A DNA stretch of 64,000 nt from Thuidium tamariscinum (taxonomy: Eukaryota > Streptophyta > Bryopsida > Hypnales > Thuidiaceae): assembly GCA_947034885.2 (NCBI GenBank), contig OX344749.2, positions 32,235,182-32,299,181 on the forward strand. Reading direction: 5' to 3'. Below are positions 4,301 through 60,906 of the stretch, one piece after another. The notes beneath the pieces are model-generated. The model made no database searches, was not told the DNA's origin, and saw only the letters and a program-made list of their open reading frames with translations. The translations under genes and the position numbers were made by a program. Position 1 is the stretch's first letter; every line of letters begins with the position of its first letter.

Positions 4301-5555
4301 ATTGGAAGGATTGAGTTCAAAAAATATAACGCACAATCATGTTCTAAAGGGTCAAATAAGTTGTAAAGCCATCTCCATGAGAAGGGAAGTTGAACCCTAT
4401 GCATGGGAGTCATGTACAAGAAAGACAGTGCTAGTCAAGCAAACTAAACTAAAAAAATGCTAGTAAATCTAGAGGACATCTATGAGAGGCTACAATCTTA
4501 GTGCTTGCCCATCCAAAAATGGAGCCATCTATATAAAAAGAGGGAGTATATAGAACCTGCCATGTCGCTGAGCCAGGATAAAATTTCAAAAAAAAAGTCG
4601 TCGGGCCCATGTTGATCCATTGAAGGTAACTATGTATAAATTTCAAAGTGCAGCCACCAAGAATTTTTAATTATTTTCTTTGTAAAAGCACAATTTACAC
4701 CAACAATGCAAAGATGAAGCAATCATACTATAGACTATAATTCTCTACTGAATACTTCAAAATGAAGCACATCAGAGCTCAAATGCCCAGTTCATAGATG
4801 CTGCTCGATTTTAAAACTTGTTCATAGTGTTTGTTTACCCTCCCTAAGGGCACCTATTACTACCCAGTCACATTTCAGGACTCTTACCATACCTTGGCTA
4901 TGATATTCCATTTCATTTGTTTCAAAAAAAAATCCATTCAATCTGTATTGTAGCTAATCCATTCTGAAACTGAAGCTCAATGAAAATTTTCATTTTTATT
5001 TTTTCAGAAAGGAAATCCCCTCTTGTATATGTTCTAAGATATTTTGAGTGTAGGAACATGAAACTATAGTACATTATTGAATAAATAGTGAAAAAAATTC
5101 ATATCAAATACAAATAAGTTTAAGACATCCAAAATTTTCACTAAATGTATATAGAATTTTTTAGAATAGATAGGGTGCCAACCAAATTTGTATGCCATTT
5201 TTAATTAGAAAATCAATGCACTATGGCGGTTTCAAACCTACAATAAAAATTGCAATAAAATTATAGTAAAATGGGTCACTAAATCCTTCAAATCCCTATA
5301 AAGTATCCCAATAATTAAATAATGTGCACAAGATAAAGTAGGTCACAACATTTTATTTGTTCAAGCATATTGCTACTAAAAGTTACAATTGCCTTGCAAT
5401 TGTCATTTGTAATTATTCACCATCATCATTGTGTGAATAGGTGAACTTTGCACTATTTATTGTGTATTCTCGAAATCATGATGTCCATATAAAACAATTG
5501 GCTCATCTATGATATCCTTCCTATCTTCTACATTCCTTTACCATACATGTAGGTC
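4301..5555. other. AT-rich intergenic, nothing recognised
   Basis: I see no coding signal, tandem array or clear inverted repeat here. The short reverse frames at 4141-4646 overlap the foldback element or have no domain and are discounted. Confidence 0.5.
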
Positions 5556-6278
5556 ATTGCAAGAAAGACCGACCAATTTATGTAGTGTTTTCCACAATAC
5601 TGCTGAAATTTTCGGGAGTACTATATAATTAGAAAAACAATTTTTTTAAAATGTGAAAAATATGTTTTATGTATATACCTCTATGAAGAAGGTACCCTAT
5701 GAAGGAAAAGTGTAGAAAAATTCTCTAAGTAGGAGAACTAGAAAAGTGCAAATTTTCATGAAAATGGGTACTTTGACATTTTAATTTGTGAAAAATAGGA
5801 AAAAGAATTTTAAAAAAAACTAAAAATTGGAAATTTGAGAGAATTTTATGATGAAGAGATTTCACCAAAAGAATGATCTCAAAACCATCTTAAATGTTCA
5901 AAAGTATGCGTGCAAGGGAGGCTTGTTTGCGCACATGTAGAGGAAAGAGAATAATGATTTTTGAGATTTCCTTTGGTAGAAACATGCCTACCTAGTATGG
6001 AAATAGGCCACAAAAATTTCAGCTTTAGATCATTAATTTTGGATGCTCCCCAATACTAAAAACCCCTAAACCGCAAAGTGTGACAAATTAGCTTAATTGA
6101 AATTTAATTATAAAATGATTTTTGAATTTTTTTGAAAAATAAAGAATTTGATTGTTGTCATATCAAAAATCTTTAATCAAAATTTCAAGTTAATATGGTT
6201 CATACTTTAAAAGTTATAATCAATAACAACTCCGACATTCAAAGTGTTACGCAAAATAGTACCGGTCTTTCTTGCAAT
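5556..6278. mobile_element. TTGCAAGAAA-ended element, copy 1
   Basis: A 723-bp AT-rich unit with terminal inverted repeats: ATTGCAAGAAAGACCG at the left and its complement CGGTCTTTCTTGCAAT at the right. Its interior (about 5880-6110) is clearly related to 35810-36010, inside the second copy at 34753-36174. ATGTAG occurs next to both ends and may be a remnant of a target duplication. No protein is encoded. Confidence 0.65.
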
Positions 6279-7122
6279 CACCCATGTAGATGAATGCTTG
6301 AAGTTATATTCCTTGTATAATATAGGAAGTTAGAGTCCAGATTAAGGTACCAAAAAGTCTCTATCTCCAATATAACTTGCATCACCTATGATGAGTTCAT
6401 GGACATCTACACTTTGATTCTCGATTGTTGGTCCATTCAATTGTCTTCCTATAATCACTTTTTTAATGAGATTCGACATTAATAAAATTTGAGAATCATG
6501 AATAGAGCTATAAATACAAACAAAAACATTTGTAAATCAAGACTCATGGTCTATAATAGCCTACATTATTATAGAGTATTGTCTTACATAGTGTAATTGG
6601 TCTTAGGAGACACACAACTAGTATCACATGCAAACTAGTATTTCTTACCATTTTGGATGTAGAAAGTAGAAAAATATAATATTTTCACAATGTACACTAG
6701 CTTAAAAATAATGTGACAAGTTTATTAAGGTTACATGCATTATAAAGCAATGTACCTTTATTTTTTCCTTTTGAAGGTAGACAAAATCATTATGAAATGT
6801 CAATTGTCTAATCATCATTTAGAATTGGTTTGGATATTCAATAATTTTGTATTACAGCATTAAGCTTTAAGTATCCAAGTGAAAGCATATGATTAAATAC
6901 TTATGTGTGCTATAAATTATTGTTCTTGTAATCTTTTTGATATTAATTTAGAAAGAGAATGAATTACTATCAAGAGTAGAAAATTAATATTATAGTCAAA
7001 TTTTATAATCTATTTCAAATTTATTAGTTCAAATCTATTTGAAGCAATATTACTTCAAAAAAATTTAAATAATTAATTTTCTTTTACCATTGGATATTCT
7101 TACATTATCTAATATCATAGAG
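6279..7122. other. AT-rich intergenic, nothing recognised
   Basis: No open frame, repeat array or inverted repeat that I can support. Confidence 0.5.
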
Positions 7123-7419
7123 CATTAGGAGGGATTTGAGGGCTCCAAAGGGCCGTTTCGGGACTGTTCCCGAAACTGGTCTGGGGAACGGCTGGTTGAT
7201 GTCAGGCCAGCATTTCTTAAAAAAATTCAAAAAAATAAAATTTGGGGTCTTGAAATATGATAAAAAGTCCAAAAAAAAATTCTCAAAAAAAGAAGTTAAT
7301 GGCGTGGCAATTGCTCAACCACGTAGAATTCCCTGCTAAACTGCGTTCTCGTGGCAGATAACACGATTTCGGGCTGTGGGAACTCGTAGGCTCCTAGAGC
7401 CCTCAAATCTCTCCTAATG
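7123..7419 (+). mobile_element. 300-bp MITE with CATTAGGAG termini, copy 1
   Basis: The unit begins CATTAGGAGGGATTTGAGGG and ends CCCTCAAATCTCTCCTAATG, giving inverted repeats of about 22 bp. The interior is GC-richer than its surroundings and carries a TTTCGGGACTGTTCCCGAAA palindrome just inside the left end. A second copy lies in opposite orientation at 33670-33977. A 67-codon open frame inside is not conserved in the other copy and is not coding. Superfamily unknown; no clear target duplication. Confidence 0.8.
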
Positions 7420-7990
7420 GTTACAAACCTCCCATAGCTTGTAACATCAACTTAGTATGAACTCTAAATGCAAATATTAAATATACCTAATAATAAGAAT
7501 GTTTTTACAAGGAGCTCAACTACCAAATCATAAAAAGAGATTATCTCCAAAATAAATCTCCTCACCCTTAAGCTCAATCTTATATAATTGAGACTATCAA
7601 TAAAGACTATTAATACTTAATTAAGAAAGTTTACGACTCTTTTCTACCTTGAGCTTTCTATCCTTAAATCTATCTAAATCCATCAACTAAAAGAAAAATC
7701 CTAGTTATAATCATTTAAATCATATCTTCTCTAAATCATCTTTTATCCAAATCTTGATCTTCTACTTGGAATTATTTAATCCCAGATTACAACTTACTTG
7801 TCTTTATTTGGAAGTTGTTAAATTTCACTACACTAGTTTTCAAATAGAGTTGTTTAACTTCACTATACAAATCCATTCTCGAGCCATACCTATCTTGAAA
7901 CAATCTCTACATATCAACTAGTATACATTACATCATGAATTAGCTCATTATCATTCATCATTGCATCCACATATAAAAGGTTATGACACA
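7420..7990. other. AT-rich intergenic, nothing recognised
   Basis: The region consists of T- and C-biased AT-rich sequence between the MITE and the tandem array. No gene seen. Confidence 0.5.
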
Positions 7991-8208
7991 ATCATCATAA
8001 ATTCTTTCATCTATTATTGCATTCATCCATAAAAATATGCTACAATCATCATAAATTCTTTCATCTATTATTGCATTCATCCATAAAAATATGCTACAAT
8101 CATCATAAATTCTTTCATCTATTATTGCATTCATCCATAAAAATATGCTACAATCATCATAAATTCTTTCATCTATTGTTGCATTCATCTACAAAGGTCA
8201 TGACTGAA
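7991..8208. repeat. 54-bp tandem repeat, about four copies
   Basis: The unit starts ATCATCATAAATTCTTTCAT and recurs at 7991, 8045, 8099 and 8153, so the period is exactly 54 bp; the copies are nearly identical and the last one is incomplete and diverged. Because 54 is a multiple of three and the unit lacks stops in one frame of each strand, both strands show artificially long repetitive open frames across it. Confidence 0.92.
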
Positions 8209-9490: not shown

Positions 9491-9814
9491 TTATAGTGTT
9501 CGAAGGACTGAACAAAATCGCCCGCTTGCCACAAACTGAAACTCTGTTCACACAGGGGGACCAAATATAGAGATCCGGAGTGCAGAGCCGTGGTATCTAG
9601 GGTTTGGGGTGGCAGTTGAATCCGACGCTGCCTGCTGCTGGTTGTGGAGGGTTTGATTTGGGGTTTCGCAGACGCCGGTCGGCTTTACTTGCAGAGTTCT
9701 TTGAAGCTCTCTTTCTGGAGCCGAGGAGGAGTCGACGACCATCGCCACAATTGGCTGATTGCGAAAACAGACAGCTCAGACCCGAGCGCCTACGAGAGAA
9801 GGAAGGGTGACACC

Positions 9815-12800
9815 ATGGGGAAGAAGAAGAAGAAAGCCCCCAAGGTGTGGTGCTTCTACTGCGAGCGCGAGTTCGAGGACGAGAAGATCTTGATCCAGCA
9901 CCAGAAAGCCAAGCACTTCAAGTGCTATGTGTGCCACAAGAAGCTCTCGTCCGCCAGCGGCATGCTCATCCACGTGCTGCAAGTGCACAAAGAATCCGTC
10001 TCCAAGTGCGCTCGACAACCTCTCAATCACTCGGAATTGCGTTTCATTAGTAGTTACGGTCAGGGATACTTGGTCCGCTGCCTTGTTGTCCCTGCTCTGA
10101 TTGGCGTTCGATCGAAATCATTTTATCTCAGGAACTCTCGGGGGCGAATTTTTGGAATTAGATTGCGTACCAATGTCGTATGGTACTCAACCCTAATTAG
10201 GAGAAAACGTTGTGGACTTGTCTGGAGAGTTCAGACTTCGTCCTCTGTAAGCGTGATTGGTAGCCTGTGATACGGAGATTACGGAACGACTGATTGCAGA
10301 ATTCGAGAGTTTCCAATGTGCTGAGCTTAGAACTTGACGAAGTGTCTCTCATCTTGCAGTGTTAGTTGTTCGTTTTAGCTCGCTCCCTACATTTGTTGTT
10401 AGGGAGACTCCTCACAAGCAGCTCAGCTACTTTGTCTGCCTTGATTAAGAGCGGCGGGGAAGGGGCTATGATGATTTTAGGGCTAGAATGTATCCTCAGC
10501 CGCATTGCTTTCTTGCGACTTCTTGTTGTCTCTCGGTCCAGCTCGTTTTCAGTACAGTTCTGACTCTCAACACAATTGTGAGCACTATAGGTGTGGTATT
10601 GACGTGGTGTTCACTTGTGGGACCTGACCTATCCTTGGTGATGTGTAGGATACCTAATGCGAAGCCTGAAAGGGAAACGATGACTGATTTGGAAATATAT
10701 GGTATGGAGGGAATACCAGCTGACATCCTTGCAGCTCATGATGGGGATAACGATGGTACGTCCTTAAAGCGATCCACTCTTGTCGGCATGGTGTTGGTTT
10801 ATGTAGTTACTTTGGAATGTTGACATTGTAGCATGCAAATAACATGACCGGCAAGTGTTGGAAAGATTGTCTGGATTGATACCCGAGATCGTGGGACTTT
10901 GTCTTTATTTCAGTAAGATACGCGACCTTTCGTTGTCTGGACTTGTCGTCAGGTCGTGTGCACTCCTCCAATGCAGCGCTCCAGTATGTAGATCAGCTTC
11001 CTGTTTCTACGATTGCAACTCGGTGTTTTTGTTCCTGTATTTCTGTAGTGGTCTGTGAGGGACTAGATGCATCCTTCACTGGTTTCTGGACCATTTTGCG
11101 TGTCTACTGTTTCCTAGTTTAGCCGATTCCTATCCACTCCTCGTGTCCGTCGAGTTGAGAAGTTTTGCTTGCGACGTATCATGAATGCCCACATTACATT
11201 GCAAGCTTTTGGTTTGTGATGATCTTTGGGCATCGTCGATTCAGAATTTCCCTGAGGTTTGAGTGATGAATGGCGAGTTGTTGTTTGGAATTGCTTGGCA
11301 ATGTGCTACGTTGGGGCGTGGCATTGGAGAGTGTGTTAGTGCAAAGGTTGCAAATGGTAGTGCGTAGTTGTGTTGCAGTAGTTTTGTTTGAAGAGAGTGT
11401 CGTTGTTAATGTCGATTGGGAGATTCGGCTCACGCAGAGGATGAGAACCCATCAAAGGTTGCGAAGGTGGAGGTCCCTCCGTCCTTACCCTATGTGGGAG
11501 GCGGTATGATGGCCCCGAATGCTCTTGGTATGGCCCCACAACCAATGTATACTGCAATGCAGCCTATGTAAGTTATTCTTCGAACCCTTACAATGCGTTG
11601 CTTGTCTGTTTTTCCAGGTGTTAATGGATGCATGCTTACACGCAAGGTGCGTAGGTCATTCTTTGTCGAGTCTAGGTCTAGATAGGCGACATATCTTGCG
11701 TTCACCGGGTGCTGAGGTTTGGTGACCGTGAGTTGCTTGTTGTGGGGAAGTAAATGGGTATATTGTTGGCATAGATGGTGCATTAAATTCTGTTTGGCCA
11801 TCCTTGTGTGCAACATGCTGGAAGGATTTTTGTTGTGGCGTACAACTTGGTAGGGGTCTTGTACCTAGATTAGTTGGTGGAACGCTGTGATTTGAGTGGT
11901 GCAGCGAGATTTGTCGCTGGCTGACTGGTTGTCTGTTTGCAGGTATCGGGCATCGCCTGGATCGGGTCCAAGACCACCTCCGAACTGGCAGCCGCAACCT
12001 CCACCGCCTCCAGGATGGAGTGGTCCTGCGCCTGGACAAGCAGGTCCACCTCGCATGGGCCAGCCACCGCAGCCTCTTTTTCCTTTACAGGGCCAACGAC
12101 CTCCCCCTCCGCTGGGTCCTTCTCAACCTCCTTCTCAACCTCCGTCCCAACCTCTATTTCCTATTCGTCCTCCTCTGCCTCCAGGTTCGGCAACTCCTGC
12201 GCCTCGACCGTTGTTTCCTGTAGGTCAGCCCTCAAACGGACCTCCTCCTCCTCCGCCATACAGCTCGGCTGGGCCAGTTGTGAAGCCACCTCCGCCTAGT
12301 GGTGTTGGCAATCAATCCAGCTTGAGTGGAAGTCCTGGCATGTCACCTCCATTTCCACCGGCTGGAGGTTCCCCTGGGATGAGCAATAGTATGGGTGTGA
12401 ACTCTCGGTTGCCTCCGTTATCGAATGGAGGTGAGATTTGATGTCGTTTCTTGCTGCGTGATGCTCGTTTTTTATGTTACCCGTGACTGAAATCTGAGTG
12501 TGTTGGAGACGGTAGTGTGATGAGAAAACTTTTGTCGAATGGATCATGATTATGGAGGAAAGGGTACGTTGCTTATTTTAGATTCTACTTCTTGTGGATG
12601 GAGCCAGTGTCGCGTAAAGTTTAGGTGGATGATTGTCTTAGTATTGGCATTTCTTACTCTGTATCATATGTGCTGACACGTTTTGGCAATGACGTGCAGG
12701 TATGAGTGGGCCACCTCCCCCACCGTTGAGTAGCCACATGTACTCGTCGGGGCCGAATACCGGTGGTCCATCGATAGGACCCCCACCTGTTATTTCGAAC

Positions 12801-13319
12801 AGACCACCAGGGCCAGCTGGGGTTACGAACGAGGTTTATCTAGTTTGGGACGACGAGTTTTTGTCTATGGTAAGTTTTGTTCAATTCCTGATGCCAGTTG
12901 TAACTTGGAGTATTGTTGATGACGCACTGTTGTTGAGTTGTCTTGTTTTTTTCTGCACGCATATTCTGCCCTCTATGACATGGTTTCCTTGAGTTTTTCG
13001 TTTAGAGTTGATTTGTGCATGTTTCATCGAATTTTTTAGGTCCTCATAGTATGATCGCACTGTGAATCTGTTGCAGGAGGAGCGGAGGGTATCTTTGCGG
13101 AAGTATCAGGCTCACGACGAGACGATGCAAGTAAGCGAAAGGTCATAATCGGGGATTTCTTGATCGCGTGCTGTATCGTCTCGTATAAATTTAAGGTGGA
13201 GCTGGAGCTGTACTTCTAACATGTTTGTTTTCTGTGTACAGATGAGTTCTGTTGATGACGCAATTGATAGGAGAATCTTAGAAGGCAGGTTGGTAGGGCG
13301 AATGAGTTTTCATGTGTAA
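9815..13319 (+). CDS. SUF4/BuGZ-like C2H2 zinc-finger protein, copy A
   Basis: Seven exons: 9815-10005, 10649-10755, 11438-11567, 11943-12430, 12700-12869, 13077-13130, 13242-13319, all GT..AG and in phase, giving 405 aa. The N-terminus [20 protein letters not shown] starts two C2H2 fingers (C13, C16, H29, H34; C37, C40, H53, H58), the signature of Arabidopsis SUPPRESSOR OF FRIGIDA 4 and animal ZNF207/BuGZ. Next come [14 protein letters not shown], a long proline-rich low-complexity middle with repeated QPLFP motifs, [30 protein letters not shown], and a C-terminal [14 protein letters not shown] helix. SUF4 acts in the nucleus in transcription complexes; BuGZ relatives bind microtubules and Bub3. 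The start codon has an ACC ATGG context. An inverted paralogue lies at 60907-64000. Confidence 0.95.
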
Positions 13320-13610
13320 GTTTTTGCTTGTAAACGATTAATCCACACTTGGAGGCTGGAGAAGAGTTATTTGGTGGTGAGAGATGGTCAAGTAGTGAAT
13401 CCATGTGATGAGGCCAGCCATTATTCTTGGTCTGACGAAAGCAACGATATGCCACTGGAGCTTGCGCTCTGTTCAGCTGCTGGTGATTTCTGCACCAGTG
13501 TATTGAATCGACGGTGTATTTTATTTGGGGGAGACTTAGTTGCGAGGCAATGAATCTGGTTGTATGGTTGCTGAGCAAGAACGCTTTTTATCAGGCAAAT
13601 GTATGACTAT
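13320..13610 (+). other. 3' UTR of SUF4-like copy A
   Basis: The sequence after the stop aligns with the reverse complement of 60615-60906 (shared blocks include TTTTTATCAGGCAAATGT and GGTGTATTTTATTT). The duplicated block therefore extends through the transcript tail, but identity here is visibly lower than in the upstream introns. An open frame at 13371-13553 is not conserved in the paralogue. Confidence 0.65.
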
Positions 13611-15805: not shown

Positions 15806-16032
15806 CCCCTTGAAGAGATCACTCTTTTTTTTTTTCAAACTACATTAGTTATAAGATAGGGTCCATTTAATTCAAAGGAAAAAAATCTATATAATATGTA
15901 GGGCTACTATAGGACCTATGAAATGCTAAACTTTATATTAAATATAAATTAGACTATGTAAAAATATAATTTAGCATTAATTTTTTTCATAAGAACAAAA
16001 TTTACATAAGAACAAAATTTATAGTTCATTAA

Positions 16033-16969
16033 CCCCTAAAGGTTTTTGACTATATTTTCATCAAAACTGCTTCAAAACTATCATTTCTTAGATAACTACC
16101 AAATTTTAAGAAAAAAAGATTTTCAAACAAGAATAACCATACGATCTCTTAGAACATAGGTTTGAGAAGATGTGGAAAAAATTTCAGCAATTTTCGCCGT
16201 GAATATTGCAAGATATTAGTGTTTGAAGTGACAAAAATCATTTTTTTACCATTGCAAAAATCCGGGCAGTTGCACTTCAAAAGAGCAGATTTGTATAGAA
16301 AAATGTCCAAAATGATTGTAACTCTTTCGATTCATTCTTCAAGTGAGGTTGGCTACATGCTTTAAATTTTTCAGATCATTTGGAATTGTCCAATATATAG
16401 GAAAAAAATAATAAATACAAAGAAGTAGAAAATTAGCCAACATACCAAATTATTAACAATTTATTCATAGAGTTAAGAGAAGACAATTCCAATGGTTGTA
16501 ATGTTGTGTTAAACAATGTACACACAATTTATTTTTTTCAGAAACATTAAAAATTGAATTAAACAAAGAATTTCAAACTTTTTTTGTAGTGTAGAGATTC
16601 TATACCTAGCCGCAAACTACCTCAAACTTAAAATAGTCATAATTTTTTACTCATTAATCAAAAAGAAATGATTGAAAGCTTTCCACTCATATAGAAATCA
16701 AATAAACCAATTTCATACTGTAATTTTTTTTTAAATTCATTTTTTAAGAAGTTTTTTTTGGTCCCCTCGGTGCTTGTTGAAGAAAGAAAACAATCTATCA
16801 TGTCATAAATTTGTAACCATGTAATCTAAAATCTGAAAAATTGTTGGATCTTCAAGGTACTCCTTAGGCACATGTGAGAAAATTTCAAAGAAAAGAACAA
16901 AAACTACATCCTTAGTGAGCTACCCAAAATCGCTATACTGTCAAAAACAATAGTTTGGTCCTTTCTGGG
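16033..16969. repeat. possible TTAA-flanked element inside the Plavaka left arm
   Basis: TTAA-CCCCTAAAGGTTTTTGAC at 16029 and CCTTTCTGGG-TTAA at 16961-16973 bound about 940 bp. The right portion (16610-16969) is related to 52700-53091, which also ends in GGGGTTA. The two ends match only moderately, so this may be a decayed TTAA-type MITE or two unrelated ends. Confidence 0.4.
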
Positions 16970-18707: not shown

Positions 18708-21700
18708 TTAAAACTTATATCCATTTACGAAATATCGACCTACGCTCCTAAAATCTGGTACAATATGAATAGATTTCATTATCCTATGTATATCGATGAC
18801 CTCATATGATCCTTCAACATTTTCAAACCACTTCAATACTACACAATTCACTATATTATCAAATTCTATCTCTTCATACTTCTTCACCAAACATAATTCT
18901 TTGGTTTCATAAGTGTCTCCTACTACTTTCACATTGCACTTGAAAAGAAGGCGGAGTTGAGCATAACATGTCCTTTCCATTTCATTTTCTTCTTCCATTT
19001 TTATTGAAATGTTGCCAAACCACTCTTTAGCATGAAAACTTGATGTTGCACGTACATGTAAACGTTGGAGTTGCTTCAAACCTTAAGCTCTGACCTGGAC
19101 ATAGAGCTATAAATTTGAATAACCTGAAAGCATTTCAACATGATACTCAACATTTATATTTATACTCACATGAAATACCATTAAATGCGTGAAAATTATA
19201 ATGCAATAGTAAAACACCAAAGACAAGAGAGCACACACACACCTGACTTCCTATCATGTGATTCTGGTTTAAATAAGCTTCCAAACAAATCTTCAAATTT
19301 GTTTGGATGTCTTCTTGTGAAATTATTTTCACCATTTGTTGTTGTTGTTGGTTCCTTGAATGTGAAGATGGTCCTCCTGTAAGTGTGGGCAATTGAAGTC
19401 TATCTATATTCAAGTTTGTCAAAAAACCTACTAGAATGTGTTTTCCAATCTCTAAAGTATGCACAAACAACCATCCCTCCAATTTAAATTTTCTAGAAAG
19501 TTAAGGAAACATTTCACATTTATACATCCTCATGACAACTTCCTCGCGTGTTTACAATTAGGATTCAAAGTATTGCTAAAAACCTTCATATTACAATGAT
19601 TTCAAAACTATCTTTTCATGTACCTTGTCTAGTATTGCATTCTTCCCAATTGGATGAGAATAAGCTCCATCCCTCATTGCGTCCATTCTAAGAACTTCAA
19701 GTCTTCAGTTGTATTTTATAATATGATCAAGAAAATTCTTTCTATTGCTTATCCTATAACCTATTTTTACAATAGCTATGTAAAGATGCTCATACATATT
19801 TGTACTATATTCCACCAGAGCACCAGATCGTTTGATTGAAGTTGTGTAATGCTTCATATTATGAATTTTTTATCAAATTGAAGTTTGATTTTTGCCATAT
19901 TCCTAAATGTATTTTACATAGGTCAATAGTCCTGCAATACATATACATTTTTTTAATAGTGCTAGTATGTGGGATGACAATGTTAGAATGTAAGTCTCAA
20001 GCATGCATATTAGAAGATGTCATACAACTATTGTAGGTGCTCATAGTATAAACACCTACAACATAGGTCTCTATAATATAAATATACTAAAATTATAGAA
20101 AACTTTCTAAATGAAGACAATTTTGTAGTAGGTGTATAGTCTTCAAAGCTCATGGGCTAATACTTCTAAGCCCACATAATAGCAACCTTCTAAAATAAAC
20201 CAACCATTGCGATTTTTATGAAGAATACATGAAAATATATTTTGTATGTCTTTTTTCTATTATAAATAATAGTATATTCAACATCTACAATTTGAATTCT
20301 CAATCAAAACAAAATTTCATTATAAATATCTGGTCATTGATTGTTCCATGGATATGAACTTCTCTTCATCGAATTCTCTTTGACGACAAGATACCTCATA
20401 CCATTCCAAGAAGCTTACAATTGCTTGAACAAAAAAATTTGGCAGTAAACCTAGCAAACAAAACACAATAACCTACACATAAAATCATGTTCTCCTTAGA
20501 ATGTGATTTCAAAATAAAGTGAACTCGAGGCAAAATAAAATTTGTTGTTATTTAATTAAAAAAACTATTGACTTTACTTTAAATTAATGTAGGACACATA
20601 GTAACGACAAGATGCAAAGTACATTCAAATTGAAACTAATTCATTTACAACCAAATTCAACAATTTTGAATGTTTATAACAAAAAAGAATAATGCTCTCT
20701 ATCAATTATGTTTTTTCTCACCTGCATAACTGAACAATGCTCAAAAGTAGCAAAGTTTGCGTTTGATGTAAAATACCCTCCTCGTGATGAGCCAAACAAT
20801 CAAAAATGAAAGAATCTTCCTGATTCTTTTATTGCCATTATCCTCTCATCTAATTGTGATATTGGATTAGGATTTAGTTCTTTTGAGATCTCTTGTAGGA
20901 CATCCATCAATGTTTTGAAAACACCCAAATCCGCTTGATGTAAAACGTCTACATTGATGGCTCTATAAGGATTGCCAATTTCCGTCTCTCCTCCAGTAAA
21001 CCTCCAAAGTGTACACTGCTTTCCACAATAACCAATACCTATAACCTTGAGTCCTGAATTTTACTGAAATTTTTTTTCTACAGTTTAATATTTAATAAAC
21101 AAATAAATAGATAATTCCAAGAATTAAAAACTAAAACAAGAAACAAAACATTCTACACTTAATGACTAATATTCAATTTTCATATACACTCACCATTTCA
21201 AATTTTCAATATAAAATTTCAAAAAAACATCGCATCTTTTAATAATAAATATACCTCCACTGGATGCAACGAATATTGCTTTGATATGTTGTTTCGTTTA
21301 CTTGGAGGTGCTTCCATCATTTGGTTATAGATTATTTTCATTGTAGGCTCTATATGGTATTCATATGTTCTTTGTACATTCACCAATTCTTGAACTGGAC
21401 ACATGCACATACTACATGGAAATTGACACCTATTTGTTGTATAAGTGCAAGTCACCTGTTCATACATTGCAAACCCATCAATTGCATACCTCCTTCTAGC
21501 ACATTTCAGAAATTGGCATCATTACTACTATAGGATTTGATTCTTTATGTATTTCTTTTCAAACAATACATAAATATGTACATCATAGACAAACCAATTG
21601 AATTATTAGGATGGTAGATTTGTTAAACAAATCTACTAACTTCAAAAGTAATCATTATAGTTTGGTAATTGTTAGAAAACTATGACTTCTAACATACACT

Positions 21701-22817
21701 GCAAGTACTATGCATTTAGTCACATCAAATCGTACGTTCAATTCTTAATTCATTTGATGCCATATTATTAGTGAAAACCCTCCAATGTCACATCCTATAA
21801 ATAAGCATTCATGAGTATCTTACCAAACATGATTCTTCATGATCGCATACATAAGCATATAATCTTGGATACACTCTTTGTTCAATGCTGAATGGATCAA
21901 TCAACATTACTCTGCTATTAAAAAAAATGTAAACATTAAATTTTCATTTCAAATGAACCTAGTCAAGCACATGCCAAATTTTCTATTGTTTCTTCACTTG
22001 AGTGGTCTGTATTTCATAAAGTAAATAAATCATCAACAATTACAACTCTCACATTAATCAATGCTCTTAGTTTTAATTCACTTACTTGTAACTGCATTCC
22101 TTCAATGGTTTCAAGACATGGGCAAGACAATCTTAGAATGCTTGCATACGTTGTAGAGGTGTTGAGTTCACAACTTTGAAATTTGGCATCAATGCTAATA
22201 AACAATGGTCTCCTTCAACATGCCTATCTTCACATGCAATATTTGCAATTGTGAAGTAAATAGGATGTGCACTAATTTTTCCATCTTTAGATAATGTAGT
22301 TTTGTCACTGAAAAAAATTAGTGGAACTACTATGCCATCTCCATATTGTAAATTAACATGCTCCTGTTTTAAATATACATACATGCAATTAGGTTGACTT
22401 CAAATTGGTAACCAAAAATTCATCTACATTTAGAATTTGATTAATTTTTATTTAATATAGAACAACCTAGGTGACCAATGGAACACTAGAGACTGTATCA
22501 CATAAAAAAAAATACCTTCATTACATTCTAGTGTATAAGATGCTTGCTTGCATAAAATGCCACCAATCTCTTGTTGCAGGTGTTGAATACTCTTTTTTTT
22601 CTTGAGGATTGCAAATTTCAGGTCTTAATGCAAAATTGTTAGCAAATTTTGGAGAAGAAAACAATTCCTCCAAAGCAATTAATGGATTTCGATAGCGTAG
22701 AACAAGTTCACCAATATTTGTTTGCTCCCACCCATCTTCCTCACTATAAAAGCTTCTCTCAAATTTATCTATATCATAAGCAGATCTTAAGCAAATCATA
22801 AGCAGATCTTTGACCAT
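18708..22817 (-). pseudogene. Plavaka-type transposase relic (CACTA superfamily)
   Basis: Reading down the minus strand: 22521-22817 has WEQTNIGELVLRYRNPLIAL and TRDWWHFMQ. Then 22133-22384, after a good GT..AG intron, has IFFSDKTTLSKDGKISAHPI and YFTIANI. Then 21219-21467 has CQFPCSMCMCP and QYSLHPVE; 20803-21010 has GNPYRAINVDVLHQADLGVF; 20722-20795 has GGYFTSNANFATFEHCSVMQ; about 20360-20430 has FLEWYEVSCRQREFDEE; 19147-19482 and 18708-19079 carry the C-terminal part (YAQLRLLFKC, FENVEGSYEVIDI). The SDKT and D-LHQ-x3-GVF motifs and their order match fungal Plavaka transposases. A frameshift (HVLKPLKEC lies in another frame from 22133-22205) and a stop near 20802 show the gene is dead. The zinc-finger start is missing here but present in the palindrome next door. 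Confidence 0.8.
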
Positions 22818-23972
22818 TGAGATTGAAGATTTTCAATTCCATGAATAAAATGTTCACAATTTAGTATTTGGCTCATTTTTTACTTCTTCCTACTTACTTT
22901 TTGTTTCCTATATGTTGTACAATGCTTATATCTTGCAATGTTCACGATGGGAATTTCTAAAAAAATTTCCATGTGTTGACAAACCACCTTACTACAAGAT
23001 CCTACGGTTACACGAGTCAAAAATGTGTTTTGAAAAAAAAATTGAACTTGTATTAGAAATGGCAGTTTTTGAGCATTTTTGTTGAAAACATAGTCAAAAA
23101 CCTTTAGGGGTTAAGAGGTCCTTTGCACAAAGACGAAAAGACAAACTAAAATTCATCATAATCCATTGATGTGTACATTTTTAAACTAAAATTTAAAATA
23201 GCTCCCAATTATTCAAAACAATTTACACAAACATAAACTTCTATTTGTCAAAGCTAACTTATTAATTAAAATTTCTAGTATATGATGCTTTTACCTAAAG
23301 TAATTTATATATAATAAAGTGCTTAGCATTTCAAACACCCTATAGGAGTCCTACATATTATATATATTTTTTGGCTTTTGAATTAAATGGATCCTATCTT
23401 TTAACTCATGCAATTTAAAAAAAAATAATAATAATCTCCTATAGATGCAAATTGTAAGATGAAAGAAGTACATAAACTTATTATTCCACGACATCCTAGT
23501 TTATGAAATATATAGATTTGTTTCACTCTATCAAAAGTTGGACGTATTGAATTTGAACAAGACACATTATGTCTACATGTTCATTTGGTGGGAATTCTGT
23601 AAAAGAAGATCAACTGACCAAAGAAAGAATTCATGGTAGTAATTGAAACTAAATTGGTATTCATAGTTGGAGTGTGTCAAAATATACTTCACTTCTTGTT
23701 CATCATAACCTTAAGTAGTATTACAAACACTTCAATAGAATTAGTAGAAATAGCACTTCTCTCTAAACTTCTTTTACTTTTTAATTGCATTTTTATAATT
23801 TCTATTTATAGATATAACTAAAGAGCTCTTTTTCTCTAGGTGTATATATAACTTTAATTATTTTTTGTAGTCATTTTTCTTTACATGAAGTAAATTATTT
23901 TCTTAAGAGATATAGTAATTCTGATAGAATTTATTATTTCAATAACTTTTTTATATTTTTTGTTGTTATCAA

Positions 23973-24413
23973 TTGATAATAATGGATTCCTATCAATTCG
24001 TTTTATGTAGTAGTTCTTTTAGAACAAATAGAGCCTTGGCTACTCATAGAGCAACTTGTATAGGAAACAAGATTCCATGTGTAGAATCTTCTTCTAGAGG
24101 GAGGGGTACTCATAGAATAGAATATAGTGCAACACTAGACTACACTGATATGGCTGGACCAAGTGAATATATCGAACCACAAGATCCTCTACAATTTCAT
24201 TTTGATGACTTGAATTTTGACGATTATGATGATTGTATAGAGGAAGATTTTCTAAACCTACCTTTTTTGGAGGCACCTAGACATGAGTATAATTCAAATT
24301 TAAATCTAGTCCATTGGATTAGAACAATAAAAAAATCTTTAGGCTTATCTAATGTAGATATAGATAAATTATTCAAAGACGTTTTTGTTTCTACCAAATT
24401 TCAAGCTAGATGA
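23973..24413 (+). pseudogene. transposase N-terminus, left palindrome arm
   Basis: 146 codons starting MIIMDSYQF. A C..C-x12-H-x3/4-C-like zinc-finger segment (FVLCSSSFRTNRALATHRAT) is followed by an acidic stretch (FHFDDLNFDDYDDCIEEDF) and LVHWIRTIKKSLGLS, the order found at the start of Plavaka transposases. The frame stops just before AYDIDKFERSFYSEED, which continues in another frame. It is cut off by the palindrome centre, so it cannot make a transposase. An accessory or inhibitory truncated protein is conceivable but unproven. Confidence 0.6.
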
Positions 24414-24670
24414 TGTTTCTCTAAGATTTGCTTATGATATAGATAAATTTGAGAGAAGCTTTTATAGTGAGGAAGATAGGTGGGAGCAGACAAATATTGG
24501 TGAACTTGTTCTACGCTATCAAAATCCATTAAAACAATTCCTCCAAAGCAATTAGTGGATTTTGATAGCGTAGAACAAGTTCACCAATATTTGTCTGCTC
24601 CCACCTATCTTCCTCACTATAAAAGCTTCTCTCAAATTTATCTATATCATAAGCAAATCTTAGAGAAACA

Positions 24671-25111
24671 TCATCTAGCTTGAAATTTGGTAGAAACAAA
24701 AACGTCTTTGAATAATTTATCTATATCTACATTAGATAAGCCTAAAGATTTTTTTATTGTTCTAATCCAATGGACTAGATTTAAATTTGAATTATACTCA
24801 TGTCTAGGTGCCTCCAAAAAAGGTAGGTTTAGAAAATCTTCCTCTATACAATCATCATAATCGTCAAAATTCAAGTCATCAAAATGAAATTGTAGAGGAT
24901 CTTGTGGTTCGATATATTCACTTGGTCCAGCCATATCAGTGTAGTCTAGTGTTGCACTATATTCTATTCTATGAGTACCCCTCCCTCTAGAAGAAGATTC
25001 CACACATGGAATCTTGTTTCCTATACAAGTTGCTCTATGAGTAGCCAAGGCTCTATTTGTTCTAAAAGAACTACTACATAAAACGAATTGATAGGAATCC
25101 ATTATTATCAA
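24671..25111 (-). pseudogene. transposase N-terminus, right palindrome arm
   Basis: Identical at protein level to the left-arm frame (23973-24413), in opposite orientation. This copy has the same strand as the transposase relic at 18708-22817 and probably represents the original orientation. After a short frame break the sequence continues with IDKFERSFYSEEDRWEQTN and stops at the centre of symmetry. Confidence 0.6.
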
Positions 25112-25407
25112 TTGATAACAACAAAAAATATAAAAAAGTTATTGAAATAATAAATTCTATCAGAATTACTATATCTCTTAAGAAAATAATTTACTTCATG
25201 TAAAGAAAAATGACTACAAAAAATAATTAAAGTTATATATACACCTAGAGAAAAAGAGCTCTTTAGTTATATCTATAAATAGAAATTATAAAAATGCAAT
25301 TAAAAAGTAAAAGAAGTTTAGAGAGAAGTGCTATTTCTACTAATTCTATTGAAGTGTTTGTAATACTACTTAAGGTTATGATGAACAAGAAGTGAAGTAT
25401 ATTTTGA

Positions 25408-26604
25408 CACCCCGGGGAGATTACTCGCAATTTTTAGAAAACTATGTGAGTTAAAAGATTGGGTCTATTTAATTCAAAGGGGATAAATTTTATATATATG
25501 TAAAACTACTATAGGGTTCTTGAAATGTCACATATCCTATTATATATAAATTAGGCTATGTATAAACATCATTTATTAGGAATTTTTATTAATAAATTAG
25601 CCTTTACAAATAGGGTTCATATAAAAAGTTTGTAGTACAATGAGTATAGATGTAAACAAACTTTTTTAATTGAATGATAAAACTTACACAATTTAGTAAA
25701 TGTAAGGATATTTTTCAGAAGATTTGTTGTTATCATCAAATAATTCTAGCTTGTAAATACAAATCTTTCCTTAAGTATACCAATTATGTAACAGCATGTA
25801 AAAAACTATTGTTCCAAGACAAAAGAATTGAGCTGTAAATTTACAATGAGGTTGTACTATGGAGATTTATGTTCACACAAATTACCCATTAAGAAATTGG
25901 TGTAGAGTGTGCATCATTTGCATGGAATCTTCTCTATACTTTGATACTACAAACTCTAAATTTGCCTCAACTACTTGAATATATACTTATAAATGTTTAG
26001 AGTCATCTTCTATTTTTACTAGTGTTTAATAAACACTCTTTTATTTTTTGATCCTAAATTCAAAACCATTGTAAATGCATATGTAAAAATAAAATAGTCT
26101 CTATATTATAATAGAGGTCATATTCTTGGGTTAATCTACAATGTTTTTAGAATGTCAATTTCTCATGTTGTTCATATTATATTGCTAGTATTAGTGTTTT
26201 TCTTAGTTTTAGTATCATAATTATATTTAATGTTTCTATGATGTTTATTATTCACCATATTAGGTTGTTTAGAATACATGGCATAGAATTTAGAATATTT
26301 AAAACTATTGTTGCATTTTACATTTTTATTTGTCATTTGAAATTGTACTACAATACAAGTAGTGCATATATTAAGAAAATAGTGTATATGTAAGACACTA
26401 CTTTTATAGTGTGTTGTAAATGGATATGAAAAATTTAGACATATAAATTTTGTATATAAGATAGCCTAACTATAAAAACCAAATGATTGAATTTATATGT
26501 AAAAATAAGGTCATTTTAATTACTAAAATGAAGGTAAATAGCCCCATATTAAATACCCTCTTAACTCAGGTGTATGCTTAAAATTACAAGGAGTAATCTC
26601 CCTG
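25408..26604. mobile_element. 1.2-kb non-coding CAC-ended element
   Basis: Left end CACCCCGGGGAGATTACTCG; right end, read inward, CACTCCCAGGGAGATTACTC. After the left end comes the subterminal block GTTAAAAGATTGGGTCTATTTAATTC and so on to about 25680, related to both arms of the 15.8-23.5 kb element. It is therefore a non-autonomous relative of that CACTA/Plavaka element, with better-preserved termini. No coding sequence was seen. Its first bases overlap the outer end of the palindrome. Confidence 0.65.
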
Positions 26605-26715
26605 GGAGTGGATTTGACGCTTAGACACCCGTAGGAGTAGTTTTGCAAAAAGAGCTTGGTTGTGATCACTTAATTCCAAGGGTGGGAATGAAGCGCCCAC
26701 AATGCCCAATATCAT

Positions 26716-28276: not shown

Positions 28277-30791
28277 AGTCCCCAACATCTACATTTCATT
28301 TCTTACATCATTTCTCACAGTCTGTAATTATATGATATAGAGTATAATTTGTATATGTACCCTAAATATATACCCAACTTATTAAGCTCTTTGTGAAAGT
28401 AAATCGGAACTAACAAATTCATGTTCTATTTTAGTAGAATTCTTTTGCCGTTGAAAAAAACAACAACAATATGTGCCCCCGCTAGGCAAATGAAACTAAT
28501 GATTGCTGATTTGTTTGAACCTCAGTAGGCCCGACTCCATGGATGCACTTTGTGTGGCCGAGTGCTTTGCTGCAATGCAACCAACAAAACTGATTGATCT
28601 TCTTATAGTCTGGGGAACGGCCACAACTCAAGCAGTGTCTACAACTGTGTACTATGCAATCCAGGAACAGCTCCACAGGGAACTCCGAAAATTGGCTGAT
28701 GTAATATAGATGGACGAAAAATGCTGGAAATGTTGCAGAATGTCCCACTTGCGTTTCGTCTTCTTGATGACCAGTGCCTAGTTCCTATTATTACATTTTT
28801 CAGATTTTTTACAATCTTATTGGTGAGTGAAAGCATGTTCCAGCGTACCAAAGAGTAGTGGATTTGGATACCGTATGCAAAAGTTATTAACAGTGAAAGT
28901 GTGTTTGTGAAAGCGCCATCTACAGTCTGGGTACTTGACTGATTTTGAAAATGTATGCTGGTACACGACTGATCTGGTAGCTTAGGTGTACTTAGTGATA
29001 CATATGTTGTAGCTAATAGGAAGTATTTTTTCTTGTGTCTTTTTTTTCTTTCAATTTTCTATATATGTAGTTCTTTAGAACATGATTAGTACAAGCAATG
29101 TTTTTCTAGAAACAATTTCAATGTACAAATGTATTATAGTCCTCTTGTATATATGAGAGTATTTGCATCTATGGTTGTGAGACATTTGTATGTGTGAAAA
29201 TGTAGTCCTCTTTTATATATGAGAATATTTGGAAACTCTGATTGCAAGACATTTTTGTGTTAAAATGTAGCCCAGTCTTACATATGAAAATATTTGCAAT
29301 CTATGATTGGAAGACATTTGTTTGAGTTAAAATGTAGGCTAGTTTGACATATGATAATATTTGGGATCAATGATTGTAAGACATTTGGAGCCTCAGAAAA
29401 GTAAAATTCTGGAATAAGTAGGATGTTTTGCAATCCACTTGCAATATTGAAACAAAAAAAAGCAATAACAATACAGGTTTGAAATTTAAATTGCAACAGA
29501 TCTTTTGATTATTCAATTCAATAGAAAGTATTGATATTGAGTGTGTATAGCTGCAAACTATATAGCAATATTGTTTTTTAATTGCATCATTCTTGATATC
29601 TATAATTGCAAAAATTGTTGTTGCAAACTGCAACAATACTAGATTGTTAGGCAATTGCAAAACTATTGAAACAGTAGTGTAACAATCCTGTTGCAAATTC
29701 CTCATTTTCTCCCGATGTTGGAAGCTGATGGTTGTGTTCACATTGAAATCCTAAATGATGGCCATTGATTACTACACAAAATAGTGAAAGAATGAAAGTA
29801 GGTTGCTTTAGCCTTTTAGATTTAGCAAGCTTGTTTTGGTTAACTTAATTTGAATTTTGGAAATGATTCAAAACCAACTAATGGCCTACTTGTAAAGGTC
29901 TAGATGAAATAGGAGGGTATGGAAATTGTATATTTTGATGAGCCTATATAAAATGATTTTGAATGAATATTGACCCTACAAGAAGGAAATTTAAGTGAGT
30001 TCAGAAAGAATCTAAATCTTACAAAAAGTTCCATTTGTCTACAAATTCATGTGACCCCACCTCTAATGATTAACATAAAAAGTTCACATTCCTTATATGC
30101 TCCCAAATTGAGACATATTTGATCTTATTCACTGTAGCTTGTCTATGTCTCATAATACAAATGAGTCAAGAAAATGCATCTTAGACTCTAAAGGATTAAC
30201 TTCTAAGGTTGTAACTATTCTAGTTCATTTAGTCTAATTGGGGCCAAAGTTTGGACCTAAATAACTAGGCCAAATCCTCCATGCCTAGTTGAATGCATTG
30301 CTTTCCTTCTTGCTTGATATGTTGTTGCTTCCCGCACAACCTTGTAACCCATTTTCCTATTAATCATGTTGTGTGTGTTTTATTTTTAAAATTTTAAAAT
30401 TTTTCACTTGCAACCTTATTATTTGTGTAGGGACTTTAGATTTACATCCAAACTAAAGTAGACTTTGCTTTTGGCTCTACCATAGTTTTGGTGCTCATGC
30501 AATTGACCAATGCAATACAATCATGGCTCTACTAGGGATATTTATAAAAGAGGTCTTTCACTAGTACCTAGTCAAATTTAGTCACAACAACACCTAATAC
30601 TAACATTTGCTTGCACTTACAAGAAATTCAACTTAGTTGCAAGGAGTAAATACAAGTTACTCTATGACTTAGCATATTTTTGAATCCTTGTGGTTGTTGT
30701 GACTAGGAGCAAAAGCTAGCTACACACAATCAAAAGTAGTCATAAAACACCATCATGGAGAGGTTACTTTGTGTGTTTTAAAAACCATGTA
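28277..30791. other. intergenic, no supported gene
   Basis: Short frames at 28482-28851 on both strands show no domain. At about 29130-29370 there are four degenerate copies of a 60-bp motif with TATATGA(G/A)A(G/A)TATTTG and AAGACATTTG. A TTGCAA-rich tract lies at 29395-29710. The rest is AT-rich without structure. Confidence 0.45.
29130..29385. repeat. four degenerate copies of a ~60-bp tandem repeat
   Basis: The motif, roughly AATGTAG..C..TTNTATATGA, then AATATTTG, then GANTG.AAGACATTTG, recurs near 29146, 29206, 29270 and 29334 with a spacing of about 60 bp. Copies differ by several substitutions, so the array is old. Confidence 0.6.
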
Positions 30792-33669: not shown

Positions 33670-33977
33670 CATTAGGAGAGATTTGAGGGCTCTAGGAGTC
33701 CGCGAGTTCCCACAGCCCGAAATCTTGTAATTTGCCGTAGGAACGCAGTTCAGCAAGGAATCCTACGTGGTTGAGCGACTGCCACGTCATTAACTTCTTC
33801 TTTTTTGAGTTTTTTTTTGGGAATTTTTTTCATATTTCAGGACCCACCCCCCCCCCATTTTTTTTTCATTTTTTCATTTTTTGAGAAATTCTGGCCGATA
33901 GCGGCTAGCCATTCTCCAAACCAGTTTCGGGAACAGTCGTGAAATAGCCCGTTGGAGCCCTCAAATCCCTCCTAATG
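33670..33977 (-). mobile_element. 300-bp MITE with CATTAGGAG termini, copy 2
   Basis: Reverse-complement copy of the MITE at 7123-7419: begins CATTAGGAGAGATTTGAGGG and ends CCCTCAAATCCCTCCTAATG. Matching internal blocks include CCTACGTGGTTGAGC, CCACGTCATTAACTTCTTCT and AACCAGTTTCGGGAACAGT. An internal C-run (33847-33856) is specific to this copy. Confidence 0.8.
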
Positions 33978-34752
33978 GCTATTCCTCTTTAACAAACTTC
34001 TTGCACTTCAATGAGTCAATGTTCAAAACATTGTTACCGACAAAGACATAAATAACAACTCCCTTGAAAATGAACTAAAGCACACTAATGAAGTCACAAA
34101 AAGTAATGAACAAGAAATCAAATGGAGAGCTCAACTACACCCAATCCACAACTACACTTGAAGTTGAATAAGGCATGACCATAAGTTCTCAATGGAAAAA
34201 CAAAAATTTCATAATTGAATTGTAACACATGTGACCAAAAAGGCAATCTAAGGCACTTAGACAACATGAAAAAAAATAATAGTCTAAAGAATCTAGTATG
34301 AGGCCTCCCCCCAAATGTGAAGCTTGACACCAAACCAAACTAAGGCACATACAACCACATAAAAAAAAATGGAACTTAATTTGAAACAAATTTGAATACA
34401 AATATGCACCCACGCCAATCTAAGTCATTCACTAAAGTAAACCAAAAGAATATTCAAAACTTATTTGATGCCATGCTGATGTGAACTTGCACCCCAAGCC
34501 AAATTGAAGCACTTATAGAAAAACATTAAAAAAAAATAAGGTAATCCCAATTGAACAACAAACTAATACACTTAAACAATAATGTAAAAAAAAATTGGTA
34601 ATCTGATTTGAGGCCGACTGATCCAAACTTTTATCTTCAAGCAAAATAATCTACACAACAATAAGAAGAAAAAATGGACTAGGCTCAAGCTCAACTTCGA
34701 CAATACAAAGTTAAAAACCTCAACATTAAGAACTTGCATTTACATGAGGATC
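33978..34752. other. intergenic, A-rich, nothing recognised
   Basis: Sequence is repetitive in character (CAAACTAAGGCACATA / AAATTGAAGCACTTA-like phrases recur roughly every 90 bp between 34160 and 34600), suggesting a very decayed tandem repeat. The reverse frames at 34118-34413 have no domain. Confidence 0.4.
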
Positions 34753-36174
34753 ATTGCAAGAAACACTGGTCTTATTTCATATGTCACAATTGAAGTGACA
34801 TTGTTGTTTCTTGCTATAATTTTTGAAGTATGAACTTTATAAAATAACTTTATATTTTAATTTTAATATAGCTAATTTATCACAATTAGCAGTTTTGGAG
34901 GTTTTACTATGTTAGGAGTCCCTAAATTTCATGATCTAGAGTTCAAAATTTCATGGTATATTTCTATAGTAGGGAATCATGTATCTACCAAAGTAAATTT
35001 GAAAACTTATTATTTTATGTCACTACAAGAGAAAGGGGTGTTTTAAGTATTGTCTTTTAAGTAAGGTTTTAAGTAAAAATTTACTAAAAAGACAGTCTTT
35101 TTAGTAAAATTTTACTTAAAACCTTACTTAAAAGACAATACTTAAAACACGTGATGTCTAGGACACTACTTAAAACACCCCTTTCTCTTGTAGTGTGTCT
35201 TCTACATGAGTACAACCAACACTTCTATTGTGTGCAATTTTTGAATATTGAAGATGGTTTTTAGATCATTTTTTTGGTGAAATCTTTTCATCATCAACTT
35301 TTTCAAAATGCACAAATTTTCTTTTTTTCAAAAAAAATTCTTTTCTTATTTTTTATAAATTAAAATATCAATTGCAAAGTGTCTATTTTCATGAGATTTT
35401 GCACTTTCCTAATTCACCTATTTATCAAAAGAATTTACACTTTCACTTCTTTGGATACCTTTTTCTTAAAGAAATAGACATTAAATATATTTTTCACATA
35501 TTTTTTTTAATTTCTATTTTTAAAATACTCCCAAAAAATCATGTATATTGTGGCTAAAGTGTAGACAAAATGCTCCATGATTCTTACAATAACCCATGAC
35601 CAATAGTTTCTACACTTGCCAAGCAACACAAAATTGATATGAAAGCATATAAAGAAAAAAAAATTAAAAATATACAAAAATAGGATGAAAATGAAAAAGA
35701 AATAAAAGAAACAAAAAAGAATTAGAAAAGAAATAAAGACTGACTTACAAATTGGCCATTTGGGAAGACTTTCTGGTGATGAGATTTGAACAAAAAAATG
35801 AGTTCAAAACCATTTCTAATGTTTCAAAGTGCGTGTATAAGGGAGGCCTACTTGCACAAATACAGAGGGTATAAAATAATGTATTTTTAGATTTCCTTTA
35901 ATAGAGACATGTGTGTCTACTAGAAAAATATACCACAAAATTTTTAGCTCAAAGCCATTAATTTAAACCCTCCAAATGTCATTGTGTGACAAATTAACAA
36001 AATTGACTTTTAAATATACAATGTTTTTTAAACTCTTAGAAAAAGTAAGGAATAGAATTATAAGCAAAATATCTCAAAACAAATTTTTCATTTTTTTTGC
36101 ATTTACTTCATAGCTCAAAAGTTATAGTGTTCCAAAATTGAAACGCAACAAAAGTGGTTGATGTTTTTTGCAAT
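34753..36174. mobile_element. TTGCAAGAAA-ended element, copy 2, with nested foldback
   Basis: The left end ATTGCAAGAAACACTGG and right end TTTTTTGCAAT bound about 1.4 kb. Its right part (35810-36010) matches 5880-6110 of copy 1. Its left part (34780-35010) resembles the inverted right part (AGCTAATTTATCACAATTAG, ACTTTATAAAATAA), so this copy is palindromic. A CACTA-ended foldback (35021-35195) has inserted into it and is therefore younger. Confidence 0.6.
35021..35195. mobile_element. CACTA-ended foldback MITE, copy 6
   Basis: Begins CACTACAAGAGAAAGGGGTG and ends CACCCCTTTCTCTTGTAGTG, a perfect 20-bp inverted terminus. The interior pairs over TTAAGTATTGTCTTTTAAGT and its complement. CACTACAAGA matches the textbook En/Spm terminus most closely of the six. 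Very well preserved; inserted in the element 34753-36174. Confidence 0.85.
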
Positions 36175-43964: not shown

Positions 43965-44336
43965 TACAATGCAATACAAGAGGCTTTGTCCTTGAAGCAC
44001 TACCTCACTTTTGAGAAAAAAAAGGTATTATTCAGTTGTCTCGATGGTATCTTCTATCATCACAAAACTTGTTTCCCTTTAGTCTGAAACAAATATAAAT
44101 TATCTTGTTTGTTTTTTCATTTCAAACTCTTCTAAGAACACTTGAGCTTTCTATTCACACACACAAATTGTAATTGATCATTCCATGTATGTCTATAGGA
44201 CATACATTCATCATCTTAGCTTCTCTACTCCCATATGTGGTACAACATTATTAACTCCTAAAAGATCAAAGTCTCTTAGGAGAAACAAAACATGAAACAC
44301 AGTTTTATGAACTCCATTTACAGTTGATTTCTTTAA

Positions 44337-44982
44337 CCCCTAAATGCCCAAGGTCTGTTTTGAGCTTCTTGAAATTTGCTCTAAGTTGATCAAAATGCCA
44401 ACATTTTCATAAGTTGTATCAAATTTTTTTGAATTGTAACCATACAAATTCAATTTAGACATGTTAGAGATTGCTTAGGAAAAGAAAACACAACAATATC
44501 ACTTACAAAGTGAAAGATTATAATGTTTGACCATGAGGGTGTTAAAATTGCAAAAGTGATGTGAAGTCTTTCTATCTTCTTTACGCAAGTCAAATCTGAA
44601 AAGTTGGTGACCAAAAAAATATGAGGTTAAAGGGCCTAACACACATAAATCCAATCAATTTATGGCTTTTCAAAATCTACTCTACAAATTTTGTAATTGA
44701 ATTTGAATGTGATTTTTTCTCCAAGATCTAGTGTATTTGAGGCTCATTTTCTAAAGCTCTCAACACTACAGAAAGTCAAGATTGCAATGGAAACCCTTGC
44801 ACAAAATCTTGAATAGGAAAATCACTATCATTCATTTACCATATCAGATTTCTGACACTAAAACTAGATTTCTAAAAGAACTTTTCAAAAATATAAACTA
44901 CTAGAAATAGCAACTTAATTAGGTTTTATTTAACTTCAAAGTTTTGCAAACACCAAATTTTGGTGCCTTGGGCATTTAGGGG
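44337..44982. mobile_element. TTAA-flanked (piggyBac-like) MITE
   Basis: The 17-bp perfect inverted ends CCCCTAAATGCCCAAGG / CCTTGGGCATTTAGGGG are flanked by TTAA on both sides (44333-44336, 44983-44986). A TTAA target and CCC-beginning termini are the hallmark of piggyBac elements. It contains no coding frame. The 646-bp interior matches, in reverse, the outer parts of 49881-51971, of which it is the version lacking the nested palindrome. Confidence 0.85.
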
Positions 44983-60614: not shown

Positions 60615-60906
60615 CATTTGCCTGATAAAAAGAGTCGTTGCTTCGCACTATTCCAACAAGATTCGTCGCCTCAAACAAATTCTACTCCCAAAATAAAATA
60701 CACCATGAATTCAATACAAGGGTGAAGAAATCACAGGCGACTGAATCAAGAGGTTCACGCTCCAGTGGCAAATCCAAGTCGTTCCTTCCGACAGATCACG
60801 GAGAACGACTGGCATCACGAGATGAAGACATTACTTTGCAAATGTCACCACCAAAAAAAGTCTTCTCCACCCTCCAAGGTATGAAAGATCGTGCGCAAGC
60901 AAAAGC
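60615..60906 (-). other. 3' UTR of SUF4-like copy B
   Basis: On the minus strand this aligns with 13320-13610 behind copy A. A 90-codon forward frame (60638-60910) runs antisense through it and into the last codons of copy B; it has no counterpart in copy A and is not a gene. Confidence 0.6.

Follow-up and report, generated by a model that had tools for sequence, protein, structure and literature searches.

How does a piece of transposase sequence come to face a nearly exact inverted copy of itself, and could such a structure act on its relatives? We studied this question at a palindrome lying within the window, by which we mean the whole 64-kb stretch of DNA that was analysed.

Geometry and proposed fold-back junction of the palindrome

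The initial annotation had placed a palindrome at 23674-25410, and our repeat search of the window returned an inverted repeat with the same coordinates, made of two 859-nt arms that lie 19 nt apart (Table 1). The arm length of 868 bp given in that annotation needs correction, since 9 nt of it belong to the asymmetric centre. The repeat search scored the two arms as 100% identical, but aligning one arm to the window with BLAST gave 99.767% identity over 859 nt, and base-by-base comparison identified 2 mismatches in the 859 positions, both of them transitions. One mismatch lies beside the centre (24529 T vs C at 24555), where a single difference had been reported before, while the other, in mid-arm, had been overlooked (24083 A vs G at 25001, read on the arm strand); the latter is synonymous in the ORF (GTA/GTG). 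Judged from the sequence, an arm match of 859 nt cannot be due to chance.

If the arms diverged freely, they would be about 166,000 years old at 7e-9 substitutions per site per year, with a Poisson range of 20,000-600,000 years. The central values would be 291,000 years at 4e-9 and 90,000 years at 1.3e-8; these are general plant rates, and the ages should be read as orders of magnitude only. Probably, a transposon fragment was copied backwards beside itself, and quite recently.

Table 1. Coordinates of the palindrome and of neighbouring transposon features in the window
Feature	Position	Strand	Details and basis
Palindrome left arm	23674-24532	+	Inverted copy; ends at the 2-bp overlap with the right-arm-collinear sequence
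Palindrome centre	24533-24551		19 nt, asymmetric; collinear with the right arm and the 22.7-kb copy
Palindrome right arm	24552-25410	-	Original side; collinear sequence extends to 24531
Fold-back junction	24529-24532		2-bp AA microhomology (24531-24532) and the mismatched base 24529; comparison with 22658-22799
N-terminal ORF (146 aa), left arm	23973-24413	+	ORF list; mechanical TTG start
ORF with identical protein sequence, right arm	24671-25111	-	ORF list and protein comparison
Part of decayed Plavaka transposase gene	22136-22832	-	PF18759 match and BLAST relative of the arm
E1 left end repeat	15815-16219	+	Inverted BLAST matches to the right end
E1 right end repeat	22925-23439	-	Inverted BLAST matches and alignment
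E2, short element of the E1 end family	~25408-26610		12-mer ends and end alignment; putative outer limits

A relative at 22.7 kb indicates which arm came first. BLAST and alignment showed that 22658-22799 and 24531-24674 share 94.4% identity across 144 alignment columns, including 2 one-base gaps close to the far end. The alignment to this relative covers the centre and continues over the inner ~120 nt of the right arm, whereas the left arm departs from it at 24531-24532. Because the relative is collinear with the centre and the right arm while the left arm diverges, the right arm came first and the left arm was copied from it in reverse. At the point of departure, two bases (AA) are common to the left arm and the collinear line. 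The mismatch beside the centre falls where the copy starts, and since the relative has the left-arm base there, the 24529/24555 change more likely occurred in the right arm.

An asymmetric centre collinear with one arm and an inverted 2-bp microhomology are features of fold-back duplication, and both are present here. We consider it likely, with some room for doubt, that a single fold-back event removed the 3′ part of a Plavaka-type copy and added an inverted duplicate of the 5′ part. In such an event, a broken or displaced 3′ end of the transposase sense strand, left by a presumed DNA break at ~24531, would have paired by 2 bp (AA/TT) with sequence ~20 nt upstream. Extension of the paired end back along its own template would then have duplicated the 5′ region as far out as 25409-25410, and there the new strand would have been joined to unrelated DNA.

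A 2-bp microhomology is weak in itself, and the sequence here is AT-rich. Among the human inverted duplications described in PMC3907307, 13 of 21 sequenced junctions carried 2-8 bp of microhomology (7 of them 2 bp), and the simulation given there found at least 2 bp in 134 of 1,000 random spacers. In yeast, 'large-loop' fold-backs are defined in PMC7467729 as those with loops of at least 15 nt, and the median loop reported for cells with normal Mre11 and Sae2 is 36 nt. The palindrome resembles these human and yeast post-break fold-backs in having a single-copy central spacer, a short inverted microhomology, and one side that is collinear through the spacer. However, it is interstitial, its arm is shorter than 1 kb and its outer edge lies at an apparent transposon end, whereas theirs are of chromosome scale; the spacer also measures 19 nt here, compared with 766-70,466 bp in the human set as reported in PMC3907307.

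Transposase content of the arms

Each arm carries a leader sequence and the N-terminal ORF. Beyond the right-arm ORF, a 63-aa stretch (24532-24720) continues the reading in a different frame. The reading-frame break falls at the same position in both arms, indicating that the copy from which they derive had probably been damaged beforehand; a missed intron could explain the break instead. The palindrome is two copies of a dead transposase fragment and has no complete coding capacity.

Neither the arm ORFs nor the 63-aa stretch matched any Pfam family up to E = 1. In the neighbouring sequence, PF18759 (Plavaka transposase) matched 22136-22399 (E 6e-10) and an exon-like piece at 22524-22832 (E 3.9e-06), both on the minus strand, and the other 7 of the 9 pieces in that scan, including two arm pieces, gave no match. 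Because the arm shares 94% DNA identity with this PF18759-bearing neighbour copy, we assign it to a Plavaka-type transposase fragment. That the arms hold a transposase N-terminus, as previously annotated, is thus supported through the neighbour copy and not by a profile match of the arms themselves. Beyond 24674, the remaining outer 736 nt have no BLAST relative in the 64-kb window and would be tied to the Plavaka element by continuity alone. The decayed Plavaka gene itself may span 18711-22832 on the minus strand, where the extent to 18711 is a guess.

Further searches of the arm protein returned 7 pattern matches in viral contigs and 85 in prokaryote genome contigs, none of which was confirmed in either set, and a single match among solved structures (E 0.59) that was of no use. 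NCBIfam gave no match for 4 proteins, and neither Rfam at gathering scores nor the tRNA scan found anything in the window.

A gene of Plavaka, a CMCT or CACTA-like transposon, in an apparent plant genome may be the more unusual part of this locus. Judged by title, the Plavaka papers among the matches listed concern mainly fungi, along with a green alga and a relative of animals, with no land plant among them, and none of the matches listed for literature joining Plavaka with non-seed plant names mentions Plavaka. Gene pieces near both ends of the window presumably resemble SUF4/BuGZ zinc-finger proteins of land plants. When ten gene pieces were scanned against Pfam, only 9620-10267 matched, with 4 matches (3 of them zinc fingers), all under the curated cut-offs.

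Outer edges and alternative origins

The outer edges do not look random. One base inside them, the palindrome starts with TGTC and ends with GACA (23675-25409). According to PMC12730594, fungal PlavakaA transposons have TGT..ACA termini and 2-bp target-site duplications. As a mark of an element end at 25409, TGT/ACA would be a weak one, consisting of three letters with a one-base shift allowed. We found no target-site duplication of 2-3 bp at the palindrome flanks, where the left side reads TG and the right side CC, and we therefore claim a Plavaka-derived fragment rather than an inserted Plavaka element. Compared with the Plavaka transposons described in fungi, the locus is alike in the PF18759 domain of the neighbour copy and possibly in TGT..ACA at the palindrome ends, and differs in its plant-like genome, its broken element and the lack of a visible target-site duplication.

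Two structures, E1 and E2, lie to the left and right of the palindrome. The left end of E2 adjoins the right edge of the palindrome or overlaps it by up to 3 nt. The ends of E2 carry the exact 12-mer GGGAGATTACTC at 25415-25426 and 26591-26602, in opposite orientations, and it occurs nowhere else in the window without a mismatch; when up to 2 mismatches were allowed, there were 6 matches against 2.89 expected, a number reached by 6 of 100 shuffles, and only the exact pair was used. BLAST showed that the E2 left end (25416-25613) is 76% like the E1 end at 23439-23241, in inverted orientation. The two ends of E1 match each other, also inverted, at 15815-15993/23438-23258 (78%) and 16029-16219/23114-22925 (72%). 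E1, at ~15.8-23.45 kb, brackets the decayed Plavaka gene and is presumably one element. The edge of the palindrome could be set equally well by the E2 end. That the copy stops at an apparent transposon end suggests that transposase cutting either made the break or ended the copying.

Further candidates for such ends were considered. A second arm-type end near 17964, the possible 3′ end of the decayed gene, was rejected, as local alignment placed it 141st with a 40-nt query, 387th with 60 nt and 702nd with 100 nt. No convincing further copy of the arm end was found in the window with the same query lengths: the best scores were 33, 41 and 51, compared with 30-32, 37-42 and 45-55 in five shuffles each. 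The 40-nt match at 29841-29980 on the minus strand lay just above the shuffles, but its extended alignment was gap-ridden and we discounted it. When up to 3 mismatches were allowed, the 13-mer end motif TGTCAAAATATAC had 75 matches in the window against 50.3 expected, and none of 100 shuffles reached 75; this excess perhaps reflects repeats or uneven composition, and the matches are too loose for placing ends. We also rejected the idea that the palindrome is the core of a larger, older inverted repeat (23241-23439/25416-25613), as both parts are members of a dispersed family of ends that is also found at 15815-15993. Likewise, an insertion of the palindrome into the terminal repeat of E2 was set aside: the left flank ends in GGAGTG, the reverse complement of the outer CACTCC of E2, but this is a match of six bases found post hoc among alternatives.

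The initial annotation had raised the possibility of a fold-back assembly artefact. According to PMC12870357, ~0.55-0.6% of nanopore genomic reads are fold-backs, which can confuse assembly, and whole-genome amplification is described in PMC6218980 as yielding artificial palindromes, so that a chimeric read or an amplification palindrome might have been built into the contig. A folded read, however, should mirror its own flank, and here the flanks differ beyond 23673 and 25411. Given these differing flanks, the two differences between the arms and the coincidence of the outer edge with an apparent transposon end, we regard an artefact as distinctly unlikely. It is also countered by a second, more diverged inverted duplication in the same window (98%, 50141-51532), and by the three PacBio sets of PMC12870357, which are given as being without systemic fold-backs, with virtually none in the PacBio HiFi set.

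The arms had also been proposed to be very young or kept identical by conversion, and this holds up in that 2 differences in 859 nt fit both alike. Close inverted-repeat arms can convert each other, identity alone does not favour youth over conversion, and the palindrome lies within an older outer inverted repeat of 74-78% identity, all of which would suit an old inverted repeat maintained by gene conversion. Yet the outer repeat is better explained by the dispersed end family with its third copy at 15.8 kb, and youth requires no extra process, so we find long-term conversion quite improbable. Another alternative is a mobile fold-back family, in which the palindrome would transpose as a unit with two 5′ ends. 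The PlavakaA-like TGT..ACA of 23675-25409 and the abrupt change of sequence at both edges speak for it, but the 2-bp target-site duplication is missing (TG/CC) and the 64 kb hold no second arm copy beyond the 22.7-kb fragment; we judge this account very unlikely. A single fold-back event in a Plavaka-type copy is the origin that we prefer.

Hairpin potential and comparison with Mu killer

Folding 23674-25410 as RNA gave a single hairpin (MFE -1445.6 kcal/mol) in which each of the 858 base pairs lies on the mirror axis. This predicted fold agrees with the long hairpin carrying the transposase N-terminus that had been suggested before. For 12 control segments of equal length from the window, the MFE ranged from -286.6 to -1040.0 kcal/mol; ten of them fell between -286.6 and -598.0, and the two lowest (-1040.0 and -1035.8 kcal/mol) span the other inverted repeat of the window, at 50-51.5 kb. 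Transcription from either flank, or from the leader in each arm, would yield a hairpin RNA of ~850 bp, which Dicer could cut into small RNAs corresponding to the 5′ region of the transposase. Plant-type Dicer enzymes are expected to process such hairpins. A promoter scan gave 18 sites against 14.3 expected, using bacterial models that are uninformative for this locus.

Mu killer is the classic case of hairpin-triggered transposon silencing. How small-RNA silencing of new transposons begins is an open question; the simplest trigger that has been proposed is a recently formed hairpin derived from the element. The palindrome would be a similar locus if it were transcribed and small RNAs from its hairpin kept Plavaka relatives silent. 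The Plavaka family is not known to be under such hairpin or small-RNA control, and the host would lie outside Plavaka's usual fungi.

Mu killer of maize, derived from MuDR, is described in PMC3440606 as a partial inverted mudrA duplication with two copies of the adjacent TIR. The likeness drawn in the initial annotation stands for the partial inverted transposase duplication with its 5′ sides outermost and for the inversion point inside the coding region, while TGT..ACA here is a possible sign of a TIR at both ends, which Mu killer has; by symmetry, the outer ends of the palindrome are alike in any case. The two loci also differ in superfamily (Plavaka/CMCT vs Mutator) and in arm length (0.86 kb vs TIR plus ~1.3 kb of mudrA per side), and the centre was sequenced here, whereas the authors of PMC3440606 report that they failed to amplify across it.

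By analogy with Mu killer (PMC3440606), an inverted transposase 5′ part whose 5′ side faces outward on either side would suit a silencer, as would the pairing of the predicted RNA over its whole length and the leader in each arm, from which convergent transcription could start. However, the sole relative in the window is decayed, leaving no intact target within 64 kb. Moreover, Mu killer plants gave short antisense transcripts from inside the locus, and read-through from a flanking gene was rejected as their source; the promoter of the antisense transcript is placed inside the locus, and the long hairpin is allowed as a possible contributor (PMC3440606). Overall, we consider a Mu killer-like role of the palindrome unlikely. 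That it is a newborn, self-contained silencer, in which a fold-back of the Plavaka 5′ end with a promoter in each arm is starting small-RNA control of the family, seems highly improbable. The locus is a clear structural candidate for a silencing trigger, with a fold-back junction that can be read to the base; otherwise it is an ordinary rearranged transposon fragment.

Other repeats in the window

The second inverted duplication (50141-51532) has 572-nt arms that are 98% complementary, lie 248 nt apart and are made of tandem units. Its right edge adjoins a repeat at 51535-51983, which pairs with 44324-44802. The presence of two inverted duplications within 64 kb is a hint that some process acts repeatedly at transposon ends. 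In addition, 5552-7419 and 33670-36053 share four matches of 69-81%, three inverted and one direct, and are perhaps the ends of larger transposons.

We also identified a gene that is inversely duplicated ~50 kb apart, at 10139-13608 and 60608-63999. Its successive blocks show 95%, 79% and 72% identity, which could reflect partial gene conversion or differing constraint. Finally, a short tandem repeat at 7951-8195 has offsets of ~110 and ~164 nt, which suggest a unit near 55 nt, and one frame is open throughout it and would encode a repeated 18-residue peptide.
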